Shown here piece after piece: positions 704-43,714 of a DNA stretch of 64,000 nucleotides (positions are counted from its first letter, which is position 1; each line of letters begins with the position of its first letter). The translations under genes and the position numbers were made by a program. This stretch comes from Acetobacteraceae bacterium. Lineage in GTDB: Bacteria; Pseudomonadota; Alphaproteobacteria; Acetobacterales; Acetobacteraceae. The stretch lies in the NCBI GenBank assembly GCA_027451405.1, contig DAIDJM010000035.1:62001-126000 (forward strand), in the 5' to 3' direction. Under the pieces are notes generated by a model. The model saw nothing but the letters and a program-made list of their open reading frames with translations, was not told the DNA's origin and searched no databases.

Positions 704-794
704 TCGCCATCGCGGGCGCCATCGGTTCAAGCACCGGTGGGGCGAGCCAGAGGCCGGGCCGCCGGCGGCGCGCCACGATCCACTCCTTGTCGGT

Positions 795-1226
795 TCAGTA
801 ATATTTCAAACGGAACCGGATCGTCACACCTTGCGGAGGAACGGTGAAGGACGCTGCCTCGAAGCGCGGCGGACCGAAATACATGCGGGCGTCGTTGGAA
901 AACCCCATGCCCTCCTCGGGAAGCCCCAGGAGATTGCGGTCGAGCCGCCCATTGTCGTTCGCGTCCTGAAAGGCCTGCGCCGCGTAGAGGCCCGGAGGCA
1001 CGCCCCGGACCACCACAATCGTCTCGCCCATGTGAGACGGTGCGTTGCCCTTCCAGCCGCAATGCGGGTGCAGGAAATCCGCGCGCGAGCAGATGGCGAC
1101 CAGCACATGGCCGCGGTCGCTGCGCACGTTCTGCACGACGATGGTCACCGTTGCCGCCTGCGCGTGCCAGGCAAAGGCAACGGCAAAGGCGAGCGCGGCC
1201 GCCTGCCGGAGACGCAGGCGCGGCAT
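795..1226 (-). CDS. DUF2141 family exported protein
   Basis: 143 residues. Residues 1-24 form a signal peptide (Arg-rich start, long Ala/Leu core, ending AWHAQA). The mature part matches the DUF2141 pattern: an N-terminal beta-strand with VLVAICSRADF, then the acidic turn FQDANDNGRLDRNLLGLP, then a C-terminal strand ending FRLKYY. Its ATG overlaps the TGA of the upstream glycosyltransferase gene (TGATG), so it is translationally coupled and is the last gene of the carotenoid cluster. A longer frame reaches 1301, but the coupled ATG gives the proper signal peptide. DUF2141 genes often travel with carotenoid clusters; their biochemical role is unknown. Confidence 0.88.
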   Translation of the reverse strand: MPRLRLRQAAALAFAVAFAWHAQAATVTIVVQNVRSDRGHVLVAICSRADFLHPHCGWKGNAPSHMGETIVVVRGVPPGLYAAQAFQDANDNGRLDRNLLGLPEEGMGFSNDARMYFGPPRFEAASFTVPPQGVTIRFRLKYY

Positions 1227-2314
1227 CAACCCTGTGCCGGATAGGCCCGGCCTCGCCAGGTGGCGGGGCGTCCGCGGGCGGCGCGGATCAGGGCCGCCCA
1301 TTGCACGATCAACAGGGCGAGGACGCCGATCGGATGCAGCGCCGCGCTCAGCCAGGATTGGCGGAAGCGCGCGGCGAGCGCGAAACGCAGGCCGAGGCTG
1401 CAGGCGCAGGCGGCGATCGCCGCCATGGAGCCCGCCGGCGCGAGCAGGAACGGCAGGACATGGCCGCCGGCGAGCAGGGCCGACCAGATTGGGAGGGCAA
1501 GCGGCTTCGCCATGCCCTCGGTGGCGTTCTTGGTCAGCCCTTCCCAGAGCGAGGCACTGTTGTCGTACATGCGACAGGAAGCGAGCGTTGTCGCGTCGAA
1601 CAGGCCGGTTCGGAAACCGGAACGACGGAAGGCGCGTGGCAGTGTCACGCCGTCATGAAGGGAGGCGCGGATGGCCGCGTGTCCGCCGGCGGCCCGATAG
1701 GGCGTGCGCCGTGCGACGAAGAGCTGGCCACAGCCGGCGCCGAACCCGGGAGAAGGGCTACGTTCCATTTGCGCCATCGGCAGGTAGCCGAGCAGCAGGA
1801 AATGGATGAGAGGCAGAAGCAGCTTTTCGGACCAGGTGATGGTGATCTGGCGCGGGAAGCCGCTGGCCAGCGCCATTTCCGGATGGCGCTCCATGTAGCC
1901 GGCGATCCGCGTGAGCGCATCGGGCGCGAGTCTGACATCGGCGTCGACGAACACCATCAGTTCCGCGTCCGTGAGGGACGCGAGCGTGGCGCAGGCATGC
2001 TGCTTGCCCGACCAGCCTGGCGGAAGCGGCGGGGCTTGCGCCACGCGCAGTCTCGGGTCGGCGATCGCCGCCAGGATCTCCGGGGTCCGGTCGGTCGAGG
2101 AATCGTCGAGAACGTGCAGGGTCACATCGACGTCGCGATTGGCGAGCACGCAGGCGACCGCCTCTTCGATGTTCCGCTCTTCGTTCCGCGCCGGGATCAG
2201 AACGGCCACCGTGGCGCGTGCCGCCGCGGCCTCAGGCGTGCGGTAGCGGCGCAGATTGTCGGCCGCGAGCAGCAGCGGCAGCGCCGCGAGCGCCAGGGCG
2301 ATGTCCGCCAGCAT
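1226..2314 (-). CDS. Membrane-associated GT2 glycosyltransferase (CrtQ/HpnB-like)
   Basis: 362 residues. A hydrophobic N-terminal segment (1-18) is followed by a GT-A domain with VLIPARNEERN (about 38-48), LDDSSTDRT and the metal-binding DAD at 124-126. Four or so hydrophobic segments fill the last 100 residues. This architecture is that of CrtQ (4,4'-diaponeurosporenoate glycosyltransferase) and of hopene-associated HpnB. Its position between an acyltransferase and two carotenoid desaturases favours sugar transfer to a carotenoid acid. The start codon overlaps the stop of the acyltransferase gene (TGATG) and the stop overlaps the DUF2141 start. The substrate is inferred, not shown. Confidence 0.85.
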   Translation of the reverse strand: MLADIALALAALPLLLAADNLRRYRTPEAAAARATVAVLIPARNEERNIEEAVACVLANRDVDVTLHVLDDSSTDRTPEILAAIADPRLRVAQAPPLPPGWSGKQHACATLASLTDAELMVFVDADVRLAPDALTRIAGYMERHPEMALASGFPRQITITWSEKLLLPLIHFLLLGYLPMAQMERSPSPGFGAGCGQLFVARRTPYRAAGGHAAIRASLHDGVTLPRAFRRSGFRTGLFDATTLASCRMYDNSASLWEGLTKNATEGMAKPLALPIWSALLAGGHVLPFLLAPAGSMAAIAACACSLGLRFALAARFRQSWLSAALHPIGVLALLIVQWAALIRAARGRPATWRGRAYPAQG

Positions 2315-33297: not shown

Positions 33298-34992
33298 ATG
33301 CCGGACCAGGCAGAGGCCGGGTCCGCGCTCCGGCCGCTCGACGCGATGCTCCGGGAGGCGGCCTCCCGCTTTCCGGGGCACGACGCCATCCGCTTCGCGG
33401 GCCGCGGCTGGACCTACGCCGCGCTCGACCGGCTCGTGGACCAGGCCGCGGCCGGCCTGCAATCGCTCGGCGCCGTCCGCGGCACGCGCATCGGCCTCTG
33501 CCTCCCGAACACGCCTTACGCCGTCATCTTCTTTTTCGCCGCACTCCGCCTCGGCGCCGTCGTGGTGAATTTCAACCCGCTTTATGTCGAGCGCGAGCTA
33601 GCGCATCAGATCGCCGATTCCGGCACCGAGATCATGGTCACGATCGACCTCGCGCTCGTGCTGCCCAAGCTGCTCGCGGTCGCCGCGAACACCGATCTCC
33701 GCCTCGTGGTCTGCCCGATCTGCGGCGCGCTGCCGCCGGGCAAAAGCCTGCTTTTCCGGCTGTTCCGCCGCCGCGACCTGGCCCGCGCGCCCGCCTCCGA
33801 CCGCATCGTCTCCTACGCCGCCCTCATGCGGCGTGGCGACTGCCCCATGCCGGTCGCCGTTTCGCCGGTCGCCCCCGGCGATCTCGCGGTGCTGCAATAT
33901 ACCGGCGGCACCACGGGAATCCCGAAAGCAGCCGAGCTCACGCACGCGAACCTGGTCGCCAATTGCGAGCAGGTCGTGTCCGGCATGCGCGATCTGCGCG
34001 AGGGCGCGGAGCGCGTGCTTGGCGTGCTGCCGCTGTTTCACGTATTCGCGATGACGAGCGTGATGAATCTCGCCGTGCGGACCGCCGCGACGATGATCCT
34101 GATGCCCCGCTTCGCGCTCCCCGATCTGCTGCGCACCATCGCGAGCGAGCGCCCCACCGTCTTCCCCGCCGTTCCCACCATCTACGCCGCGCTGGTCGAG
34201 GAGGCCTCCCGCCGCCGCGTCGATCTCCGCTCGATCCGGCTCTGCGTCTCCGGCGGCGCGCCGCTGCCTACCGAGACGCGCCAGCGCTTCATGGCGCTCA
34301 CCGGCTGCGACCTGATGGAGGGGTATGGCCTCTCCGAAACCTCGCCGGTGGTCAGCTTCACCCCCCCGGACATGCCCTACAAAGAAGGATCCGCCGGGGT
34401 CGCCGTGCCCGGCACCACGATCGAAATCCGCAGCCCCGAGCCGCCGCACGCGCTGCTGCCCGCCGGCGAACGCGGCGAGATCTGTATCCGCGGCCCGCAG
34501 GTGATGCGCGGCTATTGGCAGCGCCCGGACGAGACCGCGCAGAGCTTCGTCGAGGGCGCGCTGCGTACCGGCGACATCGGCTATCTCGACGCCGACGGCT
34601 ACTTGTTTCTTGTCGACCGCATCAAGGACATCATCATCGCCGGCGGCTACAACATCTATCCGCGCGTCATCGAGGAAGCGCTCTACCAGCACCCCGAGGT
34701 GAAGGAAGCCGTGGTGATCGGCGTGCCGGACCGCTATCGCGGCCAGGCGCCGAAAGCCTTCGTGACGTTGCGCGAGGGCGGAGCGGCGACGGCGGAGGTG
34801 CTGCGGGCCTTCCTCGGCGATTATCTCTCGAAGATCGAGCTGCCGCGCGAGATCGAAATCCGCGAGACGCTGCCGAAGACGCTGATCGGGAAACTGTCGA
34901 AGAAGGCGCTGCTGGAGGAGGCCTCCGGCGGGCCGGGGGCTTTGCCCCCTGCACCCCCACTGGGGCCGGAGGCCCCAGACCCCTTCACCTGA
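33298..34992 (+). CDS. Long-chain acyl-CoA ligase with repeat-encoded C-terminal tail
   Basis: 564 residues. AMP-binding motif A5-like TGGTTGIPK starts at residue 202, and MEGYGLSETSP, TGDIGYLDADGYLFLVDR and the lysine in LPKTLIGKLSKK follow in the usual order. It activates fatty acids to acyl-CoA and lies upstream of beta-oxidation genes. The last 23 residues (from about 542, ASGGPGALPPAPPLGPEAPD) are the translation of a dispersed palindromic element that begins at 34921. The enzyme domain itself ends just before, at KKALLEE. The insertion therefore appears to have replaced the original stop. Confidence 0.9.
   Translation: MPDQAEAGSALRPLDAMLREAASRFPGHDAIRFAGRGWTYAALDRLVDQAAAGLQSLGAVRGTRIGLCLPNTPYAVIFFFAALRLGAVVVNFNPLYVERELAHQIADSGTEIMVTIDLALVLPKLLAVAANTDLRLVVCPICGALPPGKSLLFRLFRRRDLARAPASDRIVSYAALMRRGDCPMPVAVSPVAPGDLAVLQYTGGTTGIPKAAELTHANLVANCEQVVSGMRDLREGAERVLGVLPLFHVFAMTSVMNLAVRTAATMILMPRFALPDLLRTIASERPTVFPAVPTIYAALVEEASRRRVDLRSIRLCVSGGAPLPTETRQRFMALTGCDLMEGYGLSETSPVVSFTPPDMPYKEGSAGVAVPGTTIEIRSPEPPHALLPAGERGEICIRGPQVMRGYWQRPDETAQSFVEGALRTGDIGYLDADGYLFLVDRIKDIIIAGGYNIYPRVIEEALYQHPEVKEAVVIGVPDRYRGQAPKAFVTLREGGAATAEVLRAFLGDYLSKIELPREIEIRETLPKTLIGKLSKKALLEEASGGPGALPPAPPLGPEAPDPFT
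34921..34981 (+). repeat. Dispersed palindromic element, copy 5 (forward, inside the ligase reading frame)
   Basis: GCCTCCGGCGGGCCGGGGGC, TTTGCCCCCTGCACCCCC and ACTGGGGCCGGAGGCCCCAG match copy 1 with few changes. It is in frame with the ligase gene, and the stop (TGA, 34990-34992) lies just beyond it. Confidence 0.9.
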
Positions 34993-35021: not shown

Positions 35022-35049
35022 TTGCATCCGGCCGTCTGGCTGCTATATC
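35022..35049 (+). promoter_or_regulatory. Candidate promoter of the MerR operon
   Basis: TTGCAT (35022-35027), a 16-base spacer, then TATATC (35044-35049). It precedes the motif at 35061-35081 and the regulator start at 35083. Confidence 0.4.
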
Positions 35050-35060
35050 CCCGCGTCAGG

Positions 35061-35081
35061 ACCCTAACGTATAGGTAAAGG
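35061..35081 (+). promoter_or_regulatory. Candidate operator A (LiuR-like), overlapping the MerR translation start region
   Basis: ACCCTAACGTATAGGTAAAGG shares 15 of 21 positions with the sequence upstream of the bifunctional gene at 41669. The core AACGTA resembles the ACGT-centred sites of LiuR, a MerR-type regulator of branched-chain and fatty acid catabolism. Confidence 0.5.
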
Positions 35082-35082
35082 C

Positions 35083-35499
35083 GTGGCCCTTACCCAGGCA
35101 GCCGAGTTCAGCACGGTCACGCAACTGGCGCGCGATCTCGGGATCAGCGCGCGCACCATCCGTTTCTACGAAGACAAGGGCCTGATCGCGCCGCAGCGCG
35201 CCGGCAACACGCGCGTCTACACCGCCCGCGACCGCGCCCGCATGATCCTCATCCTGCGCGGCAAGCGCCTCGGGTTTTCGCTCCGTGAGATCAAGGATTA
35301 TCTCGATCTCTACGACGTGGACCGCACCCAGGCCGAGCAAAACCGCCTGCTGCTCACGGCGGTCAAGAAGCGCCTGTTCTCGCTGCGTGAGCAGCGCCAG
35401 GCACTCGAACAGACGATCACGGAATTGGAAGACGTGCAGCGCCAAGCCGAAGCCGCGCTCACCGATCTTATGCCACGCAAACGAACCGCCCGCCCCTGA
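35083..35499 (+). CDS. MerR-family regulator, probably of acyl-CoA catabolism (LiuR-like)
   Basis: 138 residues. The N-terminal winged helix reads VTQLARDLGISARTIRFYEDKGLI (about 12-35), then NTRVYTARDRARM. A long dimerisation coiled coil fills residues 75-130. No metal-binding cysteines are present, so it belongs to the MerR branch that senses acyl-CoA-type ligands (LiuR/PfmR). It starts at a GTG two bases after the candidate operator, suggesting autoregulation, and precedes thiolase, FadB-type and acyl-CoA dehydrogenase genes in one direction. It is bracketed by inverted repeat copies (34921-34981 and 35505-35566). Confidence 0.85.
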   Translation: MALTQAAEFSTVTQLARDLGISARTIRFYEDKGLIAPQRAGNTRVYTARDRARMILILRGKRLGFSLREIKDYLDLYDVDRTQAEQNRLLLTAVKKRLFSLREQRQALEQTITELEDVQRQAEAALTDLMPRKRTARP

Positions 35500-35504
35500 G
35501 GAAA

Positions 35505-35566
35505 GGGGTCTGGGGCCCGCCGGCCCCAGTGGGGTGCAGGGGCAAAGCCCCTGCCCGCCGGAGGCA
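35505..35566 (-). repeat. Dispersed palindromic element, copy 6 (reverse)
   Basis: GGGGTCTGGGGCCCGCCGGC, CCCAGTGGGGTGCAGGGGC and AAAGCCCCTGCCCGCCGGAGGC are the reverse complement of copy 1. It begins six bases after the merR stop and ends 18 bases before the thiolase ATG. A second GAGGAG closer to the ATG serves as Shine-Dalgarno here. Confidence 0.9.
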
Positions 35567-35583
35567 AAACCGAGGAGCCCGTC

Positions 35584-36720
35584 ATGTCCCCCATCGTCAT
35601 CGCCGGCTACGCCCGCTCCCCTTTCACGCTCGCCAAAAAAGGCGCGCTCACGAAGATCCGCCCCGACGACCTCGCCGCCCAGACCATCCGCGGCCTGATC
35701 AAAAAAACCGGGGTCAAGCCTGAAGACATTGAAGACATCTATGTCGGCTGCGCGTTCCCGGAGGGTGAGCAGGGCATGAACGTGGCCCGCCTGATCGGCC
35801 TGCTCGCCGACCTGCCGCTCAGCGTCGGTGGTGCGACGGTCAACCGGTTCTGCGGCAGTTCGATGCAGGCGGTGCACATGGCCGCCGGCCAGATCAAGCT
35901 CGGCGCCGGCGAGGTGTTCGTCGCCGGCGGCGTCGAGAGCATGACGCGCGTGCCGATGGGCGGCTACAATCCGCTGTTCAATCCGGTGCTCGCCGAGAAG
36001 CAGCCCGGCGCCTATATGAGCATGGGCGAGACCGCCGAGAATGTCGCGCGCAAATGGCAGATCACGCGCGACATGCAGGAGGATTTCGCGGTCGAGAGCC
36101 AGCGCAAGGCCGCCGACGCCCAGGCTGCCGGCAAGTTCCGGGATGAGATCGTTCCGATCCACAACAACGGTTCCACCGTCGAGTCGGATGGCTGCATCCG
36201 TCCCGGCACCACGAAAGAGGCGCTCGCCGGCCTGAAGCTCGCGTTCGATCAGGAAGGCACCGTCACCGCCGGCACCTCCTCGCCGCTCACGGACGGCGCC
36301 GCCGCGGTTCTGGTCTGCACGGAGACCTACGCGGAAAAGCACGGACTGCCGGTTCTTGCCCGCCTCAAAAGCGTCGGCGTCGCCGGCGTCGAGCCGGAAA
36401 TCATGGGTATCGGGCCGGTGCGCTCGTCGCGGAAGGCGCTCGACCGCGCCGGGCTCAAAGGCACCGACATGGATGTCGTCGAGCTCAACGAGGCTTTTGC
36501 GAGCCAGGCGATCGCAAGCCTGCGCGAGATCGGCTTCCGCCCCGAGACTGTCAATATCGATGGCGGCGCGATCGCGATCGGTCACCCGCTCGGCGCCACC
36601 GGCGCGCGCATCGTCGGCAAGGCCGCCTCGTTGCTGAAACGCGAGGGCGGCAAATACGCGATCGCCACGCAATGCATCGGCGGCGGCCAGGGCATCGCCA
36701 CCGTTCTCGAGCGGGTCTGA
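35584..36720 (+). CDS. Acetyl-CoA acyltransferase (thiolase, FadA-like)
   Basis: 378 residues. The acyl-accepting nucleophile is C90 in NRFCGSSMQAV. The other catalytic elements are NEAFASQA, GGAIAIGHPLGATGAR and the proton-donor cysteine in TQCIGGGQG. It cleaves 3-ketoacyl-CoA in beta-oxidation. The FadB-type gene follows after four bases, so the two form a coupled trifunctional unit. Shorter than PhaA-type thiolases and most like the FadA/FadI group. Confidence 0.92.
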   Translation: MSPIVIAGYARSPFTLAKKGALTKIRPDDLAAQTIRGLIKKTGVKPEDIEDIYVGCAFPEGEQGMNVARLIGLLADLPLSVGGATVNRFCGSSMQAVHMAAGQIKLGAGEVFVAGGVESMTRVPMGGYNPLFNPVLAEKQPGAYMSMGETAENVARKWQITRDMQEDFAVESQRKAADAQAAGKFRDEIVPIHNNGSTVESDGCIRPGTTKEALAGLKLAFDQEGTVTAGTSSPLTDGAAAVLVCTETYAEKHGLPVLARLKSVGVAGVEPEIMGIGPVRSSRKALDRAGLKGTDMDVVELNEAFASQAIASLREIGFRPETVNIDGGAIAIGHPLGATGARIVGKAASLLKREGGKYAIATQCIGGGQGIATVLERV

Positions 36721-36724
36721 TCCG

Positions 36725-39046
36725 ATGGCAACATTCAGCAAAGTCGCGGTGATCGGTTCCGGCGTCATGGGCGCCGGCATCGCCGCGCAAATCGCCAATG
36801 CGGGCGTCCGCGTGCTGCTGCTCGACATCGTTCCCAAGGAAGGCGGCCGCAATTCCGTGGCCGAAGGCGCGATCGCCCGCGCGCTGAAGACCGATCCGGC
36901 GCCCTTCATGTCGGCCGCCGCGGCAAGGCTCGTCGAGCCGGGCAATATCGAGGACGATCTCGCGCGCGTCGCCGAATGCGACTGGATCGTCGAGGTCGTG
37001 GTCGAACGGCTCGACATCAAGCAGGCACTCTATCGCAAACTCGACGCGCTGCGCCGTCCCGGCACGCCGGTCTCCTCGAACACCTCGACCATTCCGCTGA
37101 AAACGCTGACCGAGGGCATGCCGGACGCTTTCGTGCGCGATTTCATGATCACGCATTTCTTCAACCCGCCGCGCTACATGCGCCTGCTCGAACTCATCAC
37201 CGGACCCGCGACCGATCCCGCGCTCGCGCGCCGTGTCGCCGATTTCTGCGACGTGGCCCTCGGCAAGAGCGTGGTCGCCTGCCACGACAGTCCCGGCTTC
37301 ATCGCCAACCGTCTCGGCGTTTTCTGGATGACCAGCGCCGTCACGGAAGCCCCGTTGCACGGCCTGACGATCGAGGAAGCCGACGCGATCATGGGCCGGC
37401 CGTTCGGCATCCCCAAGACCGGCGTCTTTGGTCTGATGGATCTGGTCGGCCTCGATCTCATGCCGCATGTGAATGCGAGCATGCAGGGCGCTTTGCCGCC
37501 GGCTGACGAATTCCACGCCGTGAATCGCGACGTGCCCATCGCGCGCAAACTGATCGAGACCGGCTATACCGGCCGGAAAGGGAAGGGCGGTTTTTACCGT
37601 CTCAATCGCGAGGGCGGCAAGCGCGTCAAGGAAACCATCGATTTCGCGACTGGCGAATTCCGCCCCGAGCGCCGCGCCGATCTGCCTGAACTCAAAGCCG
37701 CGGGCCGTGATCTTCGCGCGCTGTTCGAAACACCGGGCCGGGTCGGAGCCTATGCGTGGAAGGTGATGGGCCACACGCTCGGCTACGCCGCCAAACTCGT
37801 GCCCGAAGCCGCCGATAGCATTCTCGACATCGATGAGGCCATGCGCCTCGGCTATAATTGGAAACACGGCCCGTTCGAGCTGATCGATCAGGTCGGCGCC
37901 GACTGGCTCGCCGCCAAATTGCGGGCCGATGGTTTCGCCGTGGCCCCCATCCTGGAGCGCGCCGCCGGCCGGAGCTTCTACCGTGTGCACGAGGGCAAGC
38001 GCCAATATCTCGGCCTCGACGGCGCGTATCACGACGTCGTCCGTCCCGAGGGCGTGCTGCTGCTCGAGGATGTGAAGCTCACTCAGAAACCTCTGCTTCG
38101 GAACGCCAGCGCTGCGGTCTGGGATGTCGGGGACGGCGTTCTCTGCTTCGAGTTCACGAGCAAATCGAATGCGCTCGATGAGCCGATCATGACGCTGCTC
38201 CAGAAAACCATCACGCTGGTGCGCGACAAATACAAAGCCCTCGTCATCTACAATGAGGGGCGCAATTTCTCGGTCGGCGCCAATATCGGCTTGGCGCTCT
38301 TCGCCGCGAACATGGCCGCCTGGGCGCAGGTCGAAGCCCTAATCGCGACCGGCCAGGAGATCATGCAAAAGCTGAAATACGCGCCATTCCCGGTGGTCTC
38401 GGCGCCCTCCGGCATGGCGCTCGGCGGCGGCTGCGAATTCCTGCTGCACAGCTCGGCCGTGCAGGCGCATGCGGAAACCTATGCCGGTCTCGTGGAATGC
38501 GGCGTCGGCCTGCTCCCCGGATGGGGCGGCTGCAAGGAAATGCTCGGCCGCTGGTCCACCGACCCGAAAATGCCGAAAGGCCCGATGCCGGCGCCGATGA
38601 AAGTGTTCGAAATGATCAGCACGGCGAAGGTCGCGAAATCTGCCGCCGAAGCGCGGGAGATGGGCATCCTGCGCAAGGCCGACGGCATCACCATGAACCG
38701 CAACCGCCTGCTCGCGGATGCGAAGCGCCGCGCGCTCTCGATGGTGGACGGCTACAAGCCCCCCGAGCCGCGGGAAATCGTGCTGCCCGGTCCCTCCGGC
38801 AAAGTCGCGATCGAACAGGCGGTGCAGGGCTTCGCCAAGCTCGGCCTCGCCACCCGGCACGATATCGTCGTTTCGGGCGAACTCGCGACCGTGCTGACCG
38901 GCGGCCGCACCGACATCATCGACATCGTGAAGGAATCGAAACTGCTGGAACTCGAGCGCGAGGGTTTCCTCCGCCTGCTGCGGACCCCCGCCACGCTCGC
39001 CCGCATCGAGCACATGCTCGAAACCGGCAAGCCTTTGCGCAACTGA
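36725..39046 (+). CDS. Fatty-acid oxidation bifunctional protein (3-hydroxyacyl-CoA dehydrogenase, then enoyl-CoA hydratase)
   Basis: 773 residues. The order is reversed from E. coli FadB. The NAD fold is N-terminal (VIGSGVMGAGIAAQIANAG, about 9-27), with SNTSTIPLKTL, ITHFFNPPRYMRLLEL and HDSPGFIANRLGVF. A second dehydrogenase domain follows. The crotonase region is C-terminal: NFSVGANIGLALF, SAPSGMALGGGCEFLLH, and VECGVGLLPGWGG with both catalytic glutamates. This layout is that of the FadN family. It converts enoyl-CoA to ketoacyl-CoA for the thiolase upstream. The dehydrogenase gene at 39059 starts 12 bases later. Confidence 0.93.
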   Translation: MATFSKVAVIGSGVMGAGIAAQIANAGVRVLLLDIVPKEGGRNSVAEGAIARALKTDPAPFMSAAAARLVEPGNIEDDLARVAECDWIVEVVVERLDIKQALYRKLDALRRPGTPVSSNTSTIPLKTLTEGMPDAFVRDFMITHFFNPPRYMRLLELITGPATDPALARRVADFCDVALGKSVVACHDSPGFIANRLGVFWMTSAVTEAPLHGLTIEEADAIMGRPFGIPKTGVFGLMDLVGLDLMPHVNASMQGALPPADEFHAVNRDVPIARKLIETGYTGRKGKGGFYRLNREGGKRVKETIDFATGEFRPERRADLPELKAAGRDLRALFETPGRVGAYAWKVMGHTLGYAAKLVPEAADSILDIDEAMRLGYNWKHGPFELIDQVGADWLAAKLRADGFAVAPILERAAGRSFYRVHEGKRQYLGLDGAYHDVVRPEGVLLLEDVKLTQKPLLRNASAAVWDVGDGVLCFEFTSKSNALDEPIMTLLQKTITLVRDKYKALVIYNEGRNFSVGANIGLALFAANMAAWAQVEALIATGQEIMQKLKYAPFPVVSAPSGMALGGGCEFLLHSSAVQAHAETYAGLVECGVGLLPGWGGCKEMLGRWSTDPKMPKGPMPAPMKVFEMISTAKVAKSAAEAREMGILRKADGITMNRNRLLADAKRRALSMVDGYKPPEPREIVLPGPSGKVAIEQAVQGFAKLGLATRHDIVVSGELATVLTGGRTDIIDIVKESKLLELEREGFLRLLRTPATLARIEHMLETGKPLRN

Positions 39047-39058
39047 AGGAGAGCGATC

Positions 39059-40837
39059 ATGCAGATCTACAACGCACCGCTCCGCGACATGCGCTTCGTG
39101 ATGCACGAGCTGCACGGCAGTGCCGCCCATCTCGATCGCATCGGCAAAAGCGGCGTCACATCCGAGCTCATCGACAGCATTCTCGAGGAAGCCGGCAAAT
39201 TCGCCAGCGAGGTGTTGCTGCCGATCAATGCCAGCGGCGACGAGGAAGGCTGCCATTACGAGAACGGCGTCGTGCGCACGCCGCGCGGCTTCAAGCAGGC
39301 CTATGACCAGTTCCGCGAGAGCGGCTGGAGCGCGCTCGCGGCCCCCGCGGAATTCGGCGGCCAGGACCTGCCCGATATCGTCGGCAAAATGGTCGAGGAA
39401 ATGCAGTGCTCGGCCAACCTGTCCTTCAGCCTCTATCCGGGCCTCACCCAAGGCGCCACGCTGGCACTGCTCGGCCACGGCAGCGACGAGCTGAAAGCCC
39501 GCTTTCTGCCGAAAATGATCGAAGGCGTCTGGTCCGGCACGATGAACCTCACCGAGGCTCATTGCGGCACCGATCTCGGCCTGCTCCGCACGAAAGCGGT
39601 CCCGCAGGAAGACGGCAGTTACCGCATCACGGGGGCGAAGATCTTCATCAGCTCCGGCGAGCACGATCTCACCGAGAACATCATCCACCTGGTGCTCGCG
39701 CGCCTGCCCGACGCGCCGAAGGGCGTCAAAGGCATCAGCATGTTCCTGGTGCCGAAATTCCTGCCGACTGGCGACAACAAGCCCGGGCCGCGCAACGGCG
39801 TCACCTGCGCCGGCATCGAACACAAAATGGGTCTCAAAGCCTCCGCCACCTGCCAGCTCGTTTTCGAGGACGCGGTCGGCTGGCTCGTCGGCGAACCGAA
39901 TCGCGGTCTCGCCGCCATGTTCACCATGATGAACGCGGAACGGCTCTCGGTCGGCATCCAGGGGCTGGGCGTTGCTGAGACCGCCTATCAGAGCGCGGTC
40001 CATTACGCGCGCGAACGCCTGCAGGGCCGCGCCCTATCGGGCCCGAGGCGCCCCGACCTTGCGGCCGATCCCATCATCGTCCACCCCGACGTGCGCCGCA
40101 CGCTCATGACGATCCGCGCCTATGTCGAAGGCTGCCGCGCCCTCTCGGGCTGGGTCGCGCAGGCGCTCGATCTCGAAAAGCTCGGCCCAGACCCGGAAAC
40201 CCGCCGCGCGGCCGAGGATTTCGTGGCGCTCATGACGCCGGTGGTGAAAGCGCTTTTCACCGATCTCGCATTCGAAACATCGAGCATGGCGCTGCAGGTC
40301 TATGGCGGCCACGGCTATATCCGCGACCATGGCATGGAACAGCTCGTGCGCGACGCGCGCATCTGCATGATCTACGAGGGCGCCAACGGCATCCAGGCGC
40401 TCGACCTCGTCGGCCGCAAACTCCCCGCCCATATGGGCCGCATGCTGCGCGGCTTCTTCCACCCCGTGCAGGCCTTCATCGAAGCCAACGCGGCCGATCC
40501 GCGCATCATGCCGCTCGCCCGCGCCTTCGGCGCGCTGCAGCAGGCGACCGCCCATATCGCGCAGGCCGGACTGAAGGACCCCGAAGAAGCCGGCGCCGCC
40601 GCGACCGACTATCTCCGGCTGCTCGGCCTGGTCGCCCTCGGCTATATGTGGGCCCGCACGACGCAAGTTGCCGAGGCGAAACTGCCTACCGCGAACGGGG
40701 ATGCGTCTTTCTACCAATCCAAGCTCACCACCGCGCAGTTTTTCAACGAGCGTCTGCTGCCGCAGGCGGGAGCGCTGTGGACGGCGATCAAGGCGGGCAA
40801 GGAGAGCATGATGGCGCTCGACAGCGCGGCTTTCTAA
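39059..40837 (+). CDS. Acyl-CoA dehydrogenase with C-terminal extension (DmdC/FadE-like)
   Basis: 592 residues, of the long acyl-CoA dehydrogenase group that includes 3-methylmercaptopropionyl-CoA dehydrogenase (DmdC). Key phrases are LTEAHCGTDLGLLRTKA (FAD site), GAKIFISSGEHD, ALQVYGGHGYIRDHGMEQLVRD, and the catalytic-base region IYEGANGIQALDLVGRKL. A helical domain of about 120 residues follows. It supplies enoyl-CoA to the gene product upstream, probably with long- or medium-chain preference. The DmdC label should not be taken as proof of sulfur-compound metabolism. AAGGAGAG lies before the ATG. Confidence 0.9.
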   Translation: MQIYNAPLRDMRFVMHELHGSAAHLDRIGKSGVTSELIDSILEEAGKFASEVLLPINASGDEEGCHYENGVVRTPRGFKQAYDQFRESGWSALAAPAEFGGQDLPDIVGKMVEEMQCSANLSFSLYPGLTQGATLALLGHGSDELKARFLPKMIEGVWSGTMNLTEAHCGTDLGLLRTKAVPQEDGSYRITGAKIFISSGEHDLTENIIHLVLARLPDAPKGVKGISMFLVPKFLPTGDNKPGPRNGVTCAGIEHKMGLKASATCQLVFEDAVGWLVGEPNRGLAAMFTMMNAERLSVGIQGLGVAETAYQSAVHYARERLQGRALSGPRRPDLAADPIIVHPDVRRTLMTIRAYVEGCRALSGWVAQALDLEKLGPDPETRRAAEDFVALMTPVVKALFTDLAFETSSMALQVYGGHGYIRDHGMEQLVRDARICMIYEGANGIQALDLVGRKLPAHMGRMLRGFFHPVQAFIEANAADPRIMPLARAFGALQQATAHIAQAGLKDPEEAGAAATDYLRLLGLVALGYMWARTTQVAEAKLPTANGDASFYQSKLTTAQFFNERLLPQAGALWTAIKAGKESMMALDSAAF

Positions 40838-40839
40838 GA

Positions 40840-40894
40840 CCAGGGAGGCTCTGCCTCCCTGGACCCTCCGCTGGGGCCGAAAGGCCCCAGACCC
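40840..40894 (+). repeat. Dispersed palindromic element, copy 7 (variant)
   Basis: CCAGGGAGGCTCTGCCTCCC, TGGACCCTCCGCTGGGGCC and GAAAGGCCCCAG replace the first hairpin by CCAGGGAGGC/GCCTCCCTGG but keep the second. It starts three bases after a stop codon. The same variant occurs at 49887-49953. Confidence 0.85.
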
Positions 40895-40901
40895 CTTTAC
40901 T

Positions 40902-41537
40902 TTAAGCGGCTAAGCGGGCCGGTTCAGCCGGGCACAACCGAACCATGATCGGGCGGTGGTCCGAGGTGTGGCGATGCAGCGCGGCCGCCTCCACACATCG
41001 CAGGCCGCGCACGTAACAGCGATCCAGGCGCAGCGGCAGAACATCCGCGCAATGATGCGTCGGTTCGCGCGGACCCACATCCGTGAAGCCCGGCAACAAA
41101 GCCGGCCCCACCAGATTGTAATCGCCGAGGACCGCCGCCCGATACGGCAAATGCCGCTCGATCCAGCGTAATTGCCGCCGGTTCAGCACCTGCCCATGCG
41201 ACAAATGCACGTTCGCCACCGTGAAATCGCCGAAATCGAGCACCTGGCAGACGCGATCCACCACCGCGCCGGACGGCAACCGCACCACCGCCGCGCGCAG
41301 CCCTGGGCGGGGGCTCCAGAATGCCAGCCCATGCACCCGCCCCGGCAAGGGCGCTCGACCGTAGGAGCCGCCCAGATAAGACCCGAGCGCATCGATCTCC
41401 CGCGTCGCCTCCTGCAGCAGCAAAAGGTCGGGCTGCTCCCGCTTCGCCAGCCGCATCACGTCGACCAGCGAGGCGCCGGTCAGGCGCAGCAGGTTCCAGC
41501 TGAGGACCTTGTAGGGAGCAGGGCTAGTCGATGTCAT
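40902..41537 (-). CDS. Endonuclease/exonuclease/phosphatase-family protein
   Basis: 211 residues. The EEP fold shows VLSWNLLR near the N-terminus (metal-binding Asn), LLLQEATRE (metal-binding Glu), FTVANVHLSHG, AVLGDYN (Asp/Asn) and the terminal TSDHRPIMV (catalytic Asp-His). No signal peptide or membrane segment is present. Substrates in this family range from DNA to phospholipids and inositol phosphates, so none is assigned. It is convergent with the acyl-CoA dehydrogenase and divergent from the next beta-oxidation gene. Confidence 0.88.
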   Translation of the reverse strand: MTSTSPAPYKVLSWNLLRLTGASLVDVMRLAKREQPDLLLLQEATREIDALGSYLGGSYGRAPLPGRVHGLAFWSPRPGLRAAVVRLPSGAVVDRVCQVLDFGDFTVANVHLSHGQVLNRRQLRWIERHLPYRAAVLGDYNLVGPALLPGFTDVGPREPTHHCADVLPLRLDRCYVRGLRCVEAAALHRHTSDHRPIMVRLCPAEPARLAA

Positions 41538-41640
41538 GCTGCGCTGCGGCTAACACATCTTCCTTGGCGAGTCGTAGCTGAAAAACGCAACTGCGCCCCG
41601 CCCTTTCCCCGCGCCCGCCATCGTGCAAGTTTCCCGCGCT

Positions 41641-41661
41641 ACCTTGACGTAAACGGAAAGG
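41641..41661 (+). promoter_or_regulatory. Candidate operator B (LiuR-like)
   Basis: ACCTTGACGTAAACGGAAAGG aligns without gaps to the motif at 35061-35081 and contains TTGACGTAAACG, close to the known LiuR consensus. It ends seven bases before the GTG at 41669. Confidence 0.5.
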
Positions 41662-41668
41662 GGTTCGC

Positions 41669-43714
<2,046 letters not shown>

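Follow-up and report, generated by a model that had tools for sequence, protein, structure and literature searches.

The 64,000-nucleotide stretch of Acetobacteraceae bacterium DNA analysed here (the window) carries a gene for a MerR-type regulator followed by genes for fatty-acid beta-oxidation, together with two similar short sequences, one (site 1) before the regulator gene and one (site 2) before a second hydratase/dehydrogenase gene. As judged from sequence comparison, both are very probably binding sites of this regulator. The features concerned, all on the forward (+) strand, are listed below; core scores are those of a weight matrix described in a later section.

33298..34992, +, fadD-like long-chain acyl-CoA ligase (Pfam/NCBIfam), upstream neighbour with a 90-bp gap to merR
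35022..35049, +, predicted promoter of merR-fadA-fadB-fadE, TTGCAT-16 bp-TATATC (sigma70-type promoter scan)
35055..35058, +, upstream GTCA half-site of candidate operator 1 (extended-motif positions -9 to -6)
35065..35078, +, candidate operator 1, TAACGTATAGGTAA (core score 25.8)
35083..35499, +, merR-type regulator gene, 138 aa, no cysteine (Pfam MerR_1, MerR-DNA-bind)
35584..36720, +, fadA-like thiolase (family-model matches)
36725..39046, +, fadB-like 3-hydroxyacyl-CoA dehydrogenase / enoyl-CoA hydratase, 773 aa (family-model matches)
39059..40837, +, fadE-like acyl-CoA dehydrogenase, 592 aa (family-model matches)
41645..41658, +, candidate operator 2, TGACGTAAACGGAA (core score 21.1; not kept at orthologues)
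41669..43714, +, second, fadJ/fadB-like hydratase/dehydrogenase, 681 aa (family-model matches)

The regulator belongs to the MerR family, with matches to PF13411 (MerR_1, 1.5e-16), PF09278 (MerR-DNA-bind, 2.8e-13) and PF00376 (1e-11) that were all above the cut-off. It is one of three MerR_1 proteins found in its genome (3.37 Mb in 67 contigs, 97.66% complete), where the single other match to it is 35% identical. The fadJ-like gene forms a separate unit, because a gene of the endonuclease/exonuclease/phosphatase family on the opposite strand lies between 40837 and 41669.

The two matching stretches and their extent

The sequences ACCCTAACGTATAGGTAAAGG (35061-35081) and ACCTTGACGTAAACGGAAAGG (41641-41661) share 16 of 21 positions in an ungapped alignment. 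When all 21-mers of the window were compared on both strands, site 2 was the best partner of site 1 and the only one with at least 15 matches, and three places had 14. A preliminary description of this DNA had reported a shared 21-bp motif within eight bases of a GTG start. Its coordinates and gap-free alignment are correct, and so is the spacing, as the GTG codons at 35083 and 41669 follow the respective 21-mers after 1 and 7 bases. The extent of 21 bp proved too long: comparison with other genomes delimits a conserved unit of about 14 bp (motif positions 1-14; 35065-35078 in site 1 and 41645-41658 in site 2), to which a weaker upstream GTCA half-site is added in site 1 and not in site 2 (positions -9 to -6, with G at 0.85 and A at 0.71 across 41 loci). 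The AAAGG shared at the 3' end is mostly outside this core, and in site 2, where it is part of AAAGGGG, it is plausibly a ribosome-binding site. The left half of site 2, TTGACGTA, is closer to the family consensus than that of site 1.

Conservation of the motif in related loci

The MerR protein had matches at 1e-10 in 18 of 120 genomes from its order (own genome included), and 13 of these 18 (own genome included) formed a clear group with at least 52% identity, the next best match being at 43%. A sequence resembling TTGACGTATAGGTAA was recognised by eye in 8 of the 13 merR-upstream regions, including our own, and these eight regions provided the starting consensus; the perfect palindrome TTACCTATAGGTAA occurs in one of the eight (L007). 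The consensus of the putative operator is TTGACGTATA[G/C]G[T/G]NA (palindromic form TGACGTATACGTCA), a near-palindrome of roughly 14 bp that is often accompanied by an extra upstream CGTCA half-site.

One further scan provided 80 named loci, of which L119 was left out of the consensus test for its short upstream region. The consensus was found with at most three mismatches in 15 positions at 45 of the remaining 79 loci and in none of as many shuffled regions; five of these 79 loci belonged to the starting set as well and all five matched, which leaves 40 of 74 new loci. Hamming scans with the 15-mer consensus did not discriminate, with control matches exceeding real ones both in the own genome and in 12 relatives, and they were therefore replaced by a weight matrix of 43 columns, retrained on the 79 merR-upstream regions of other genomes and on no site of the own genome. 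The matrix score was above 8 in 64 of these 79 training regions. In the window, site 1 (25.8) and site 2 (21.1) were well separated from the next-best unrelated position (10.7).

A site scoring at least 17 lies within 260 bp before merR at 58 of the 80 loci, 10 of which have one before fadD too, and at a further 7 loci the only such site is before an upstream fadD reading in the same direction, although the loci are interrelated and these counts largely re-use training loci (79 of the 80). Shuffled regions reached this score in 5 of 1600 cases. With gene starts placed by homology, merR is followed within 900 bp by the start of a fadA-like gene at 78 of the 80 loci, a fadB-like gene comes next at 76 and a fadE-like gene at 60 (some loci end early), and fadD is upstream on the same strand at 39. 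A site before merR or fadD is present at 65 of the 80 loci, and the window has both the merR-fadA-fadB-fadE arrangement and the conserved candidate operator, as expected of a fatty-acid-degradation MerR regulator of alphaproteobacteria. Two of the five group genomes lacking a merR-upstream site have one elsewhere in the operon: in G112 it lies before fadD, and in G004, where merR comes last, after the end of the fadE-like gene, it precedes fadA. The candidate operator thus follows the operon boundary, being found before merR, before a leading fadD, or before fadA where merR is last, and the regulon is therefore easier to predict in related alphaproteobacteria.

Sites elsewhere in the loci, where they were followed, mostly precede genes for FadL/OmpP1-type porins or DUF2147 proteins; Pfam confirmed three of the porins (Telmatospirillum, Magnetospirillum and Xanthobacter loci) and one DUF2147 protein, the rest being recognised by eye. 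In Martelella, sites precede the electron-transfer-flavoprotein beta gene (followed by a gene for an FAD-binding protein), fadD and merR.

Several loci showed peculiarities of their own. The Magnetospirillum-titled L137 contains overlapping TTTACGTAAACGTAAA-like copies in 6-bp steps at 326-347 and 808-829, with similar arrangements in L134, L131, L124 and L113, and in L131 (by Pfam) and in L134 (by eye) a gene for a FadL-type porin lies downstream of the copy near 786-831. Of the 11 Acidocella-titled loci, six carry a site of at least 17 near the operon, and five (L069, L079, L111, L140 and L141) have merR and fad genes and no such site; a change in DNA specificity or in control is possible within part of Acidocella. 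No site was seen at the unannotated Paracoccus and Pseudorhodobacter plasmid matches (about 41%). On a plasmid of Cytobacillus (Bacillota; L149, 4933-4948), TTTACGTTAACGTCAA is located upstream of a MerR gene adjoining an acyl-CoA dehydrogenase gene, a hint that this type of operator might reach beyond Proteobacteria.

Further candidate targets in the same genome

A relaxed pattern, in which one letter was chosen with knowledge of site 2, occurs at four distinct places in the 3.37-Mb genome, compared to one for the control. Three of them precede merR (at 4 bp), the fadJ-like gene (at 10 bp) and a gene for an enoyl-CoA hydratase (at 17 bp). The hydratase site is on another contig (L034 on contig C45, site at 1501-1515), and a gene for a nitronate monooxygenase comes after the hydratase gene (731-1483, minus strand). 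Its sequence, TTGACGTATAGGGAA, is the single one-mismatch match to the 15-mer consensus in the own genome, to which site 1 has two mismatches and site 2 three (as one of ten three-mismatch matches in the genome), and its matrix score of 26.0 is the highest of the scored genome matches, above both window sites. A match to the hydratase at 1e-40 was found in 6 of 15 genomes, and the site recurs at two of the four nearest orthologues (56-63% identity; 24.8 at L177 and 26.5 at L178) with different flanks.

The preliminary description had described the regulon as local, which does not hold, because the best of the scored genome matches precedes the enoyl-CoA hydratase gene on another contig. It had also proposed a genome scan for sites before other catabolic genes; three of the four relaxed-pattern places precede beta-oxidation genes, and the fourth (C54:1594) precedes a tannase-like gene. 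Neither C54:1594 nor another match, C50:45163, was counted as a target. The latter (L044, 1501-1516), with an ArsR-family gene 17 bp after it and a divergent thiolase gene at a distance of 92 bp, is a weak candidate and may be either a further target or a chance match.

With a strict pattern, 14 places were found in seven other genomes, compared to one for the control; six precede merR (training loci), two the hydratase gene and one a fadL-like gene, and the remaining five are before or within unrelated or unrecognised genes. At L208 (G121:C111:16440), a strict-pattern site is 38 bp before a frame that resembles, by eye only, N-acetylglucosamine-6-phosphate deacetylase, and this site is possibly unrelated or an expanded target.

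Mode of action and relation to known regulators

From the motif, its positions and its conservation with the operon, we infer that the 138-aa MerR protein is, with good probability, an autoregulatory repressor of fatty-acid beta-oxidation that binds the roughly 14-bp near-palindrome. The best sigma70-type promoter has its -10 box starting 15-19 bp before the operator at 26 of 45 loci, compared to about 3.7 expected from shuffles; the scan covered 45 of the 58 merR sites, the 13 omitted being mostly farther upstream. In the window, the -10 box starts 20 bp before the operator, and 15 bp separate the promoter from the 14-bp motif. Mechanistically, a start about 7 bp past the -10 box would fall inside the extended operator, so that a protein bound at this predicted start could obstruct RNA polymerase. 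During fatty-acid breakdown, a CoA thioester or fatty-acid intermediate, a ligand suggested by the genes under control, would probably release the repressor and thereby induce its own operon (merR-fadA-fadB-fadE) together with the fadJ-like gene and the operon for enoyl-CoA hydratase and nitronate monooxygenase.

Several observations weigh against this interpretation. Matches to the plain 15-mer were fewer than those to its reversed control in the own genome (12 vs. 20 at up to three mismatches) and in 12 relatives (17 vs. 27 at two mismatches), even if 8 of the relatives' 17 matches precede fadD (4), merR (3) or fadA (1). The matrix was applied to the window and to pattern matches of the own genome rather than genome-wide. 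Neither position has a site of at least 17 at 15 of the 80 loci (among these, L131 and L132 have weaker sites of 14.7 and 13.5 before merR), and 28 of the 106 sites at this threshold in the loci are away from the expected positions, only some of them explained. Two of the four nearest hydratase orthologues lack the hydratase site, as does a more distant one (44%, a single contig under two handles). The evidence from promoters is statistical and draws on partly closely related loci, and MerR-family proteins are often activators. Finally, site 2 is absent at all five nearest orthologues of the fadJ-like gene (70-76% identity; best score 14.4, on the reverse strand, at one of them) and at the more distant orthologues examined; and C50:45163 scores 21.8, above site 2, with no evident target.

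The last two points would also suit a chance origin of site 2, with the regulator controlling merR-fadABE and the hydratase operon and not the fadJ-like gene, as would the 0.41 matches of at least 21.1 expected per genome. No convincing site was found before fadJ-like genes of relatives by eye (10 loci) or with the matrix (19 of 20 loci, L172 being skipped as its contig ends, and L161 being the same contig as L030), and the link of site 2 to the regulator is thus drawn from the own genome, since the nearest orthologues lack it. We nevertheless consider a chance origin unlikely. Under the assumption of independent bases, only 0.008 matches of this strength are expected per window and about 6e-6 per 100 bp of a single strand, a gene of the beta-oxidation pathway begins 10 bp downstream of site 2, and the window contains no other unrelated match above 10.7. 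Because a match is so improbable in a given 100 bp, whatever the expectation for the whole genome, site 2 is likely real and recently gained, and control of the fadJ-like gene by the regulator is likely, though specific to this lineage. Of the two targets proposed in the preliminary description, control of the regulator's own operon agrees with a motif that behaves like the operator of this MerR protein and lies before the merR operon; control of the separate gene 6 kb away is suggested by the second copy of the motif and weakened by its lack of conservation at orthologues.

A classical MerR activator, remodelling a promoter with an over-long spacer from an operator between the -35 and -10 boxes, would be a different mode of action. 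According to PMC5045206, activators of the MerR family bind between promoter boxes that are separated by 19-20 bp, the TTGACG within the motif resembles a -35 box, and the best-scoring promoter was one other than the upstream promoter in 19 of the 45 scanned loci. The predictions for the other 26 place the best promoter upstream of the operator with a spacer of 16-18 bp (16 bp in the window, with the operator downstream of the predicted -10 box, vs. inside the classical 19-20 bp spacer), and the 4 bp between motif and start codon leave no room for a downstream -10 box at merR. An activator of this kind is therefore unlikely, and repression is the better fit because the predicted start would lie inside the extended operator. 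The metal- and redox-sensing proteins CueR, MerR and SoxR share the fold family, and CueR is the nearest solved structure by sequence (E 2.4e-9); they differ in that their NCBIfam models remained far below the cut-off (CueR, 59.9 vs. 147.4 bits), as all 14 listed models, ZntR included, stayed below theirs, the window protein has none of the ligand cysteines of such members (zero cysteines in 138 aa), and its predicted spacer is of normal length.

The closest named regulator is LiuR, which, like the proposed repressor, is an autoregulated MerR-family protein with acyl-CoA catabolic targets. LiuR has a palindromic operator and in alphaproteobacteria serves the same pathway; its alphaproteobacterial orthologues were reportedly assigned to fatty-acid degradation genes by Kazakov and colleagues in 2009. 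The type of regulator was therefore already predicted, and what is new is the better-defined operator, a further target operon and the corrected extent. The targets here are beta-oxidation genes (fadA, fadB, fadE, fadD, fadL-like and etf-like), in which the regulator differs from a LiuR acting on liu and ivd genes. LiuR is stated to be a repressor in Shewanella (PMC3223726), and in Rhodospirillum rubrum an 'ILV box' is described before a LiuR-like gene and before the liu and ivd clusters (PMC7238569). The latter would speak for a protein that senses branched-chain acyl-CoA and regulates leucine and valine breakdown, as LiuR does in other proteobacteria. We regard this as unlikely given the fadA-, fadB- and fadE-like genes that accompany merR at most of the 80 loci. 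None of the four relaxed-pattern places, i.e., those before merR-fadABE, the fadJ-like gene, the hydratase gene and the tannase-like gene, precedes a liu or ivd gene, although the liu genes of the own genome were not sought and weaker site variants could escape the pattern. No LiuR paralogue beside liu genes was recognised in 12 genomes, and the paralogues L191-L193 (39-42%) showed no site and no recognisable liu gene among their unannotated frames, for which no family-model scan was made.

By gene content, the beta-oxidation repressor proposed here has the same physiological role as FadR (GntR), FadP (TetR) and PsrA, the fatty-acid degradation regulators of other proteobacteria named in PMC5343134. 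These proteins belong to DNA-binding families unrelated to MerR. PsrA, too, is of a different family. Among the matches listed in a literature search, limited to abstract openings, none dealt with the control of a fad operon by a MerR protein in Acetobacteraceae. The finding opens no new class of system; for the fatty-acid regulator of an Acetobacteraceae bacterium, it provides a concrete candidate operator and a brief list of targets.

The operator's right half, AGG[T/G]NA, might also be the ribosome-binding site of merR, in which case the same bases would act in the repression of transcription and in the initiation of translation, a possibility that we find rather doubtful. Among the 42 sites whose motif position 10 is G, 20 have an in-frame start codon at a distance of 3-8 nt; 22 have no start codon that near, and neither has the hydratase site of the own genome, which weighs against the idea. 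None of the 17 sites with C at this position has a start codon in that range, and one of these has it at 2 nt (site 2 was left out of this count). Thinning to 22 clusters without the window gave 6 of 15 for G and 0 of 7 for C, which is suggestive only. The distance from the motif to a possible in-frame start codon is exactly 4 nt at 13 loci, among them merR of the window (35065-35085).

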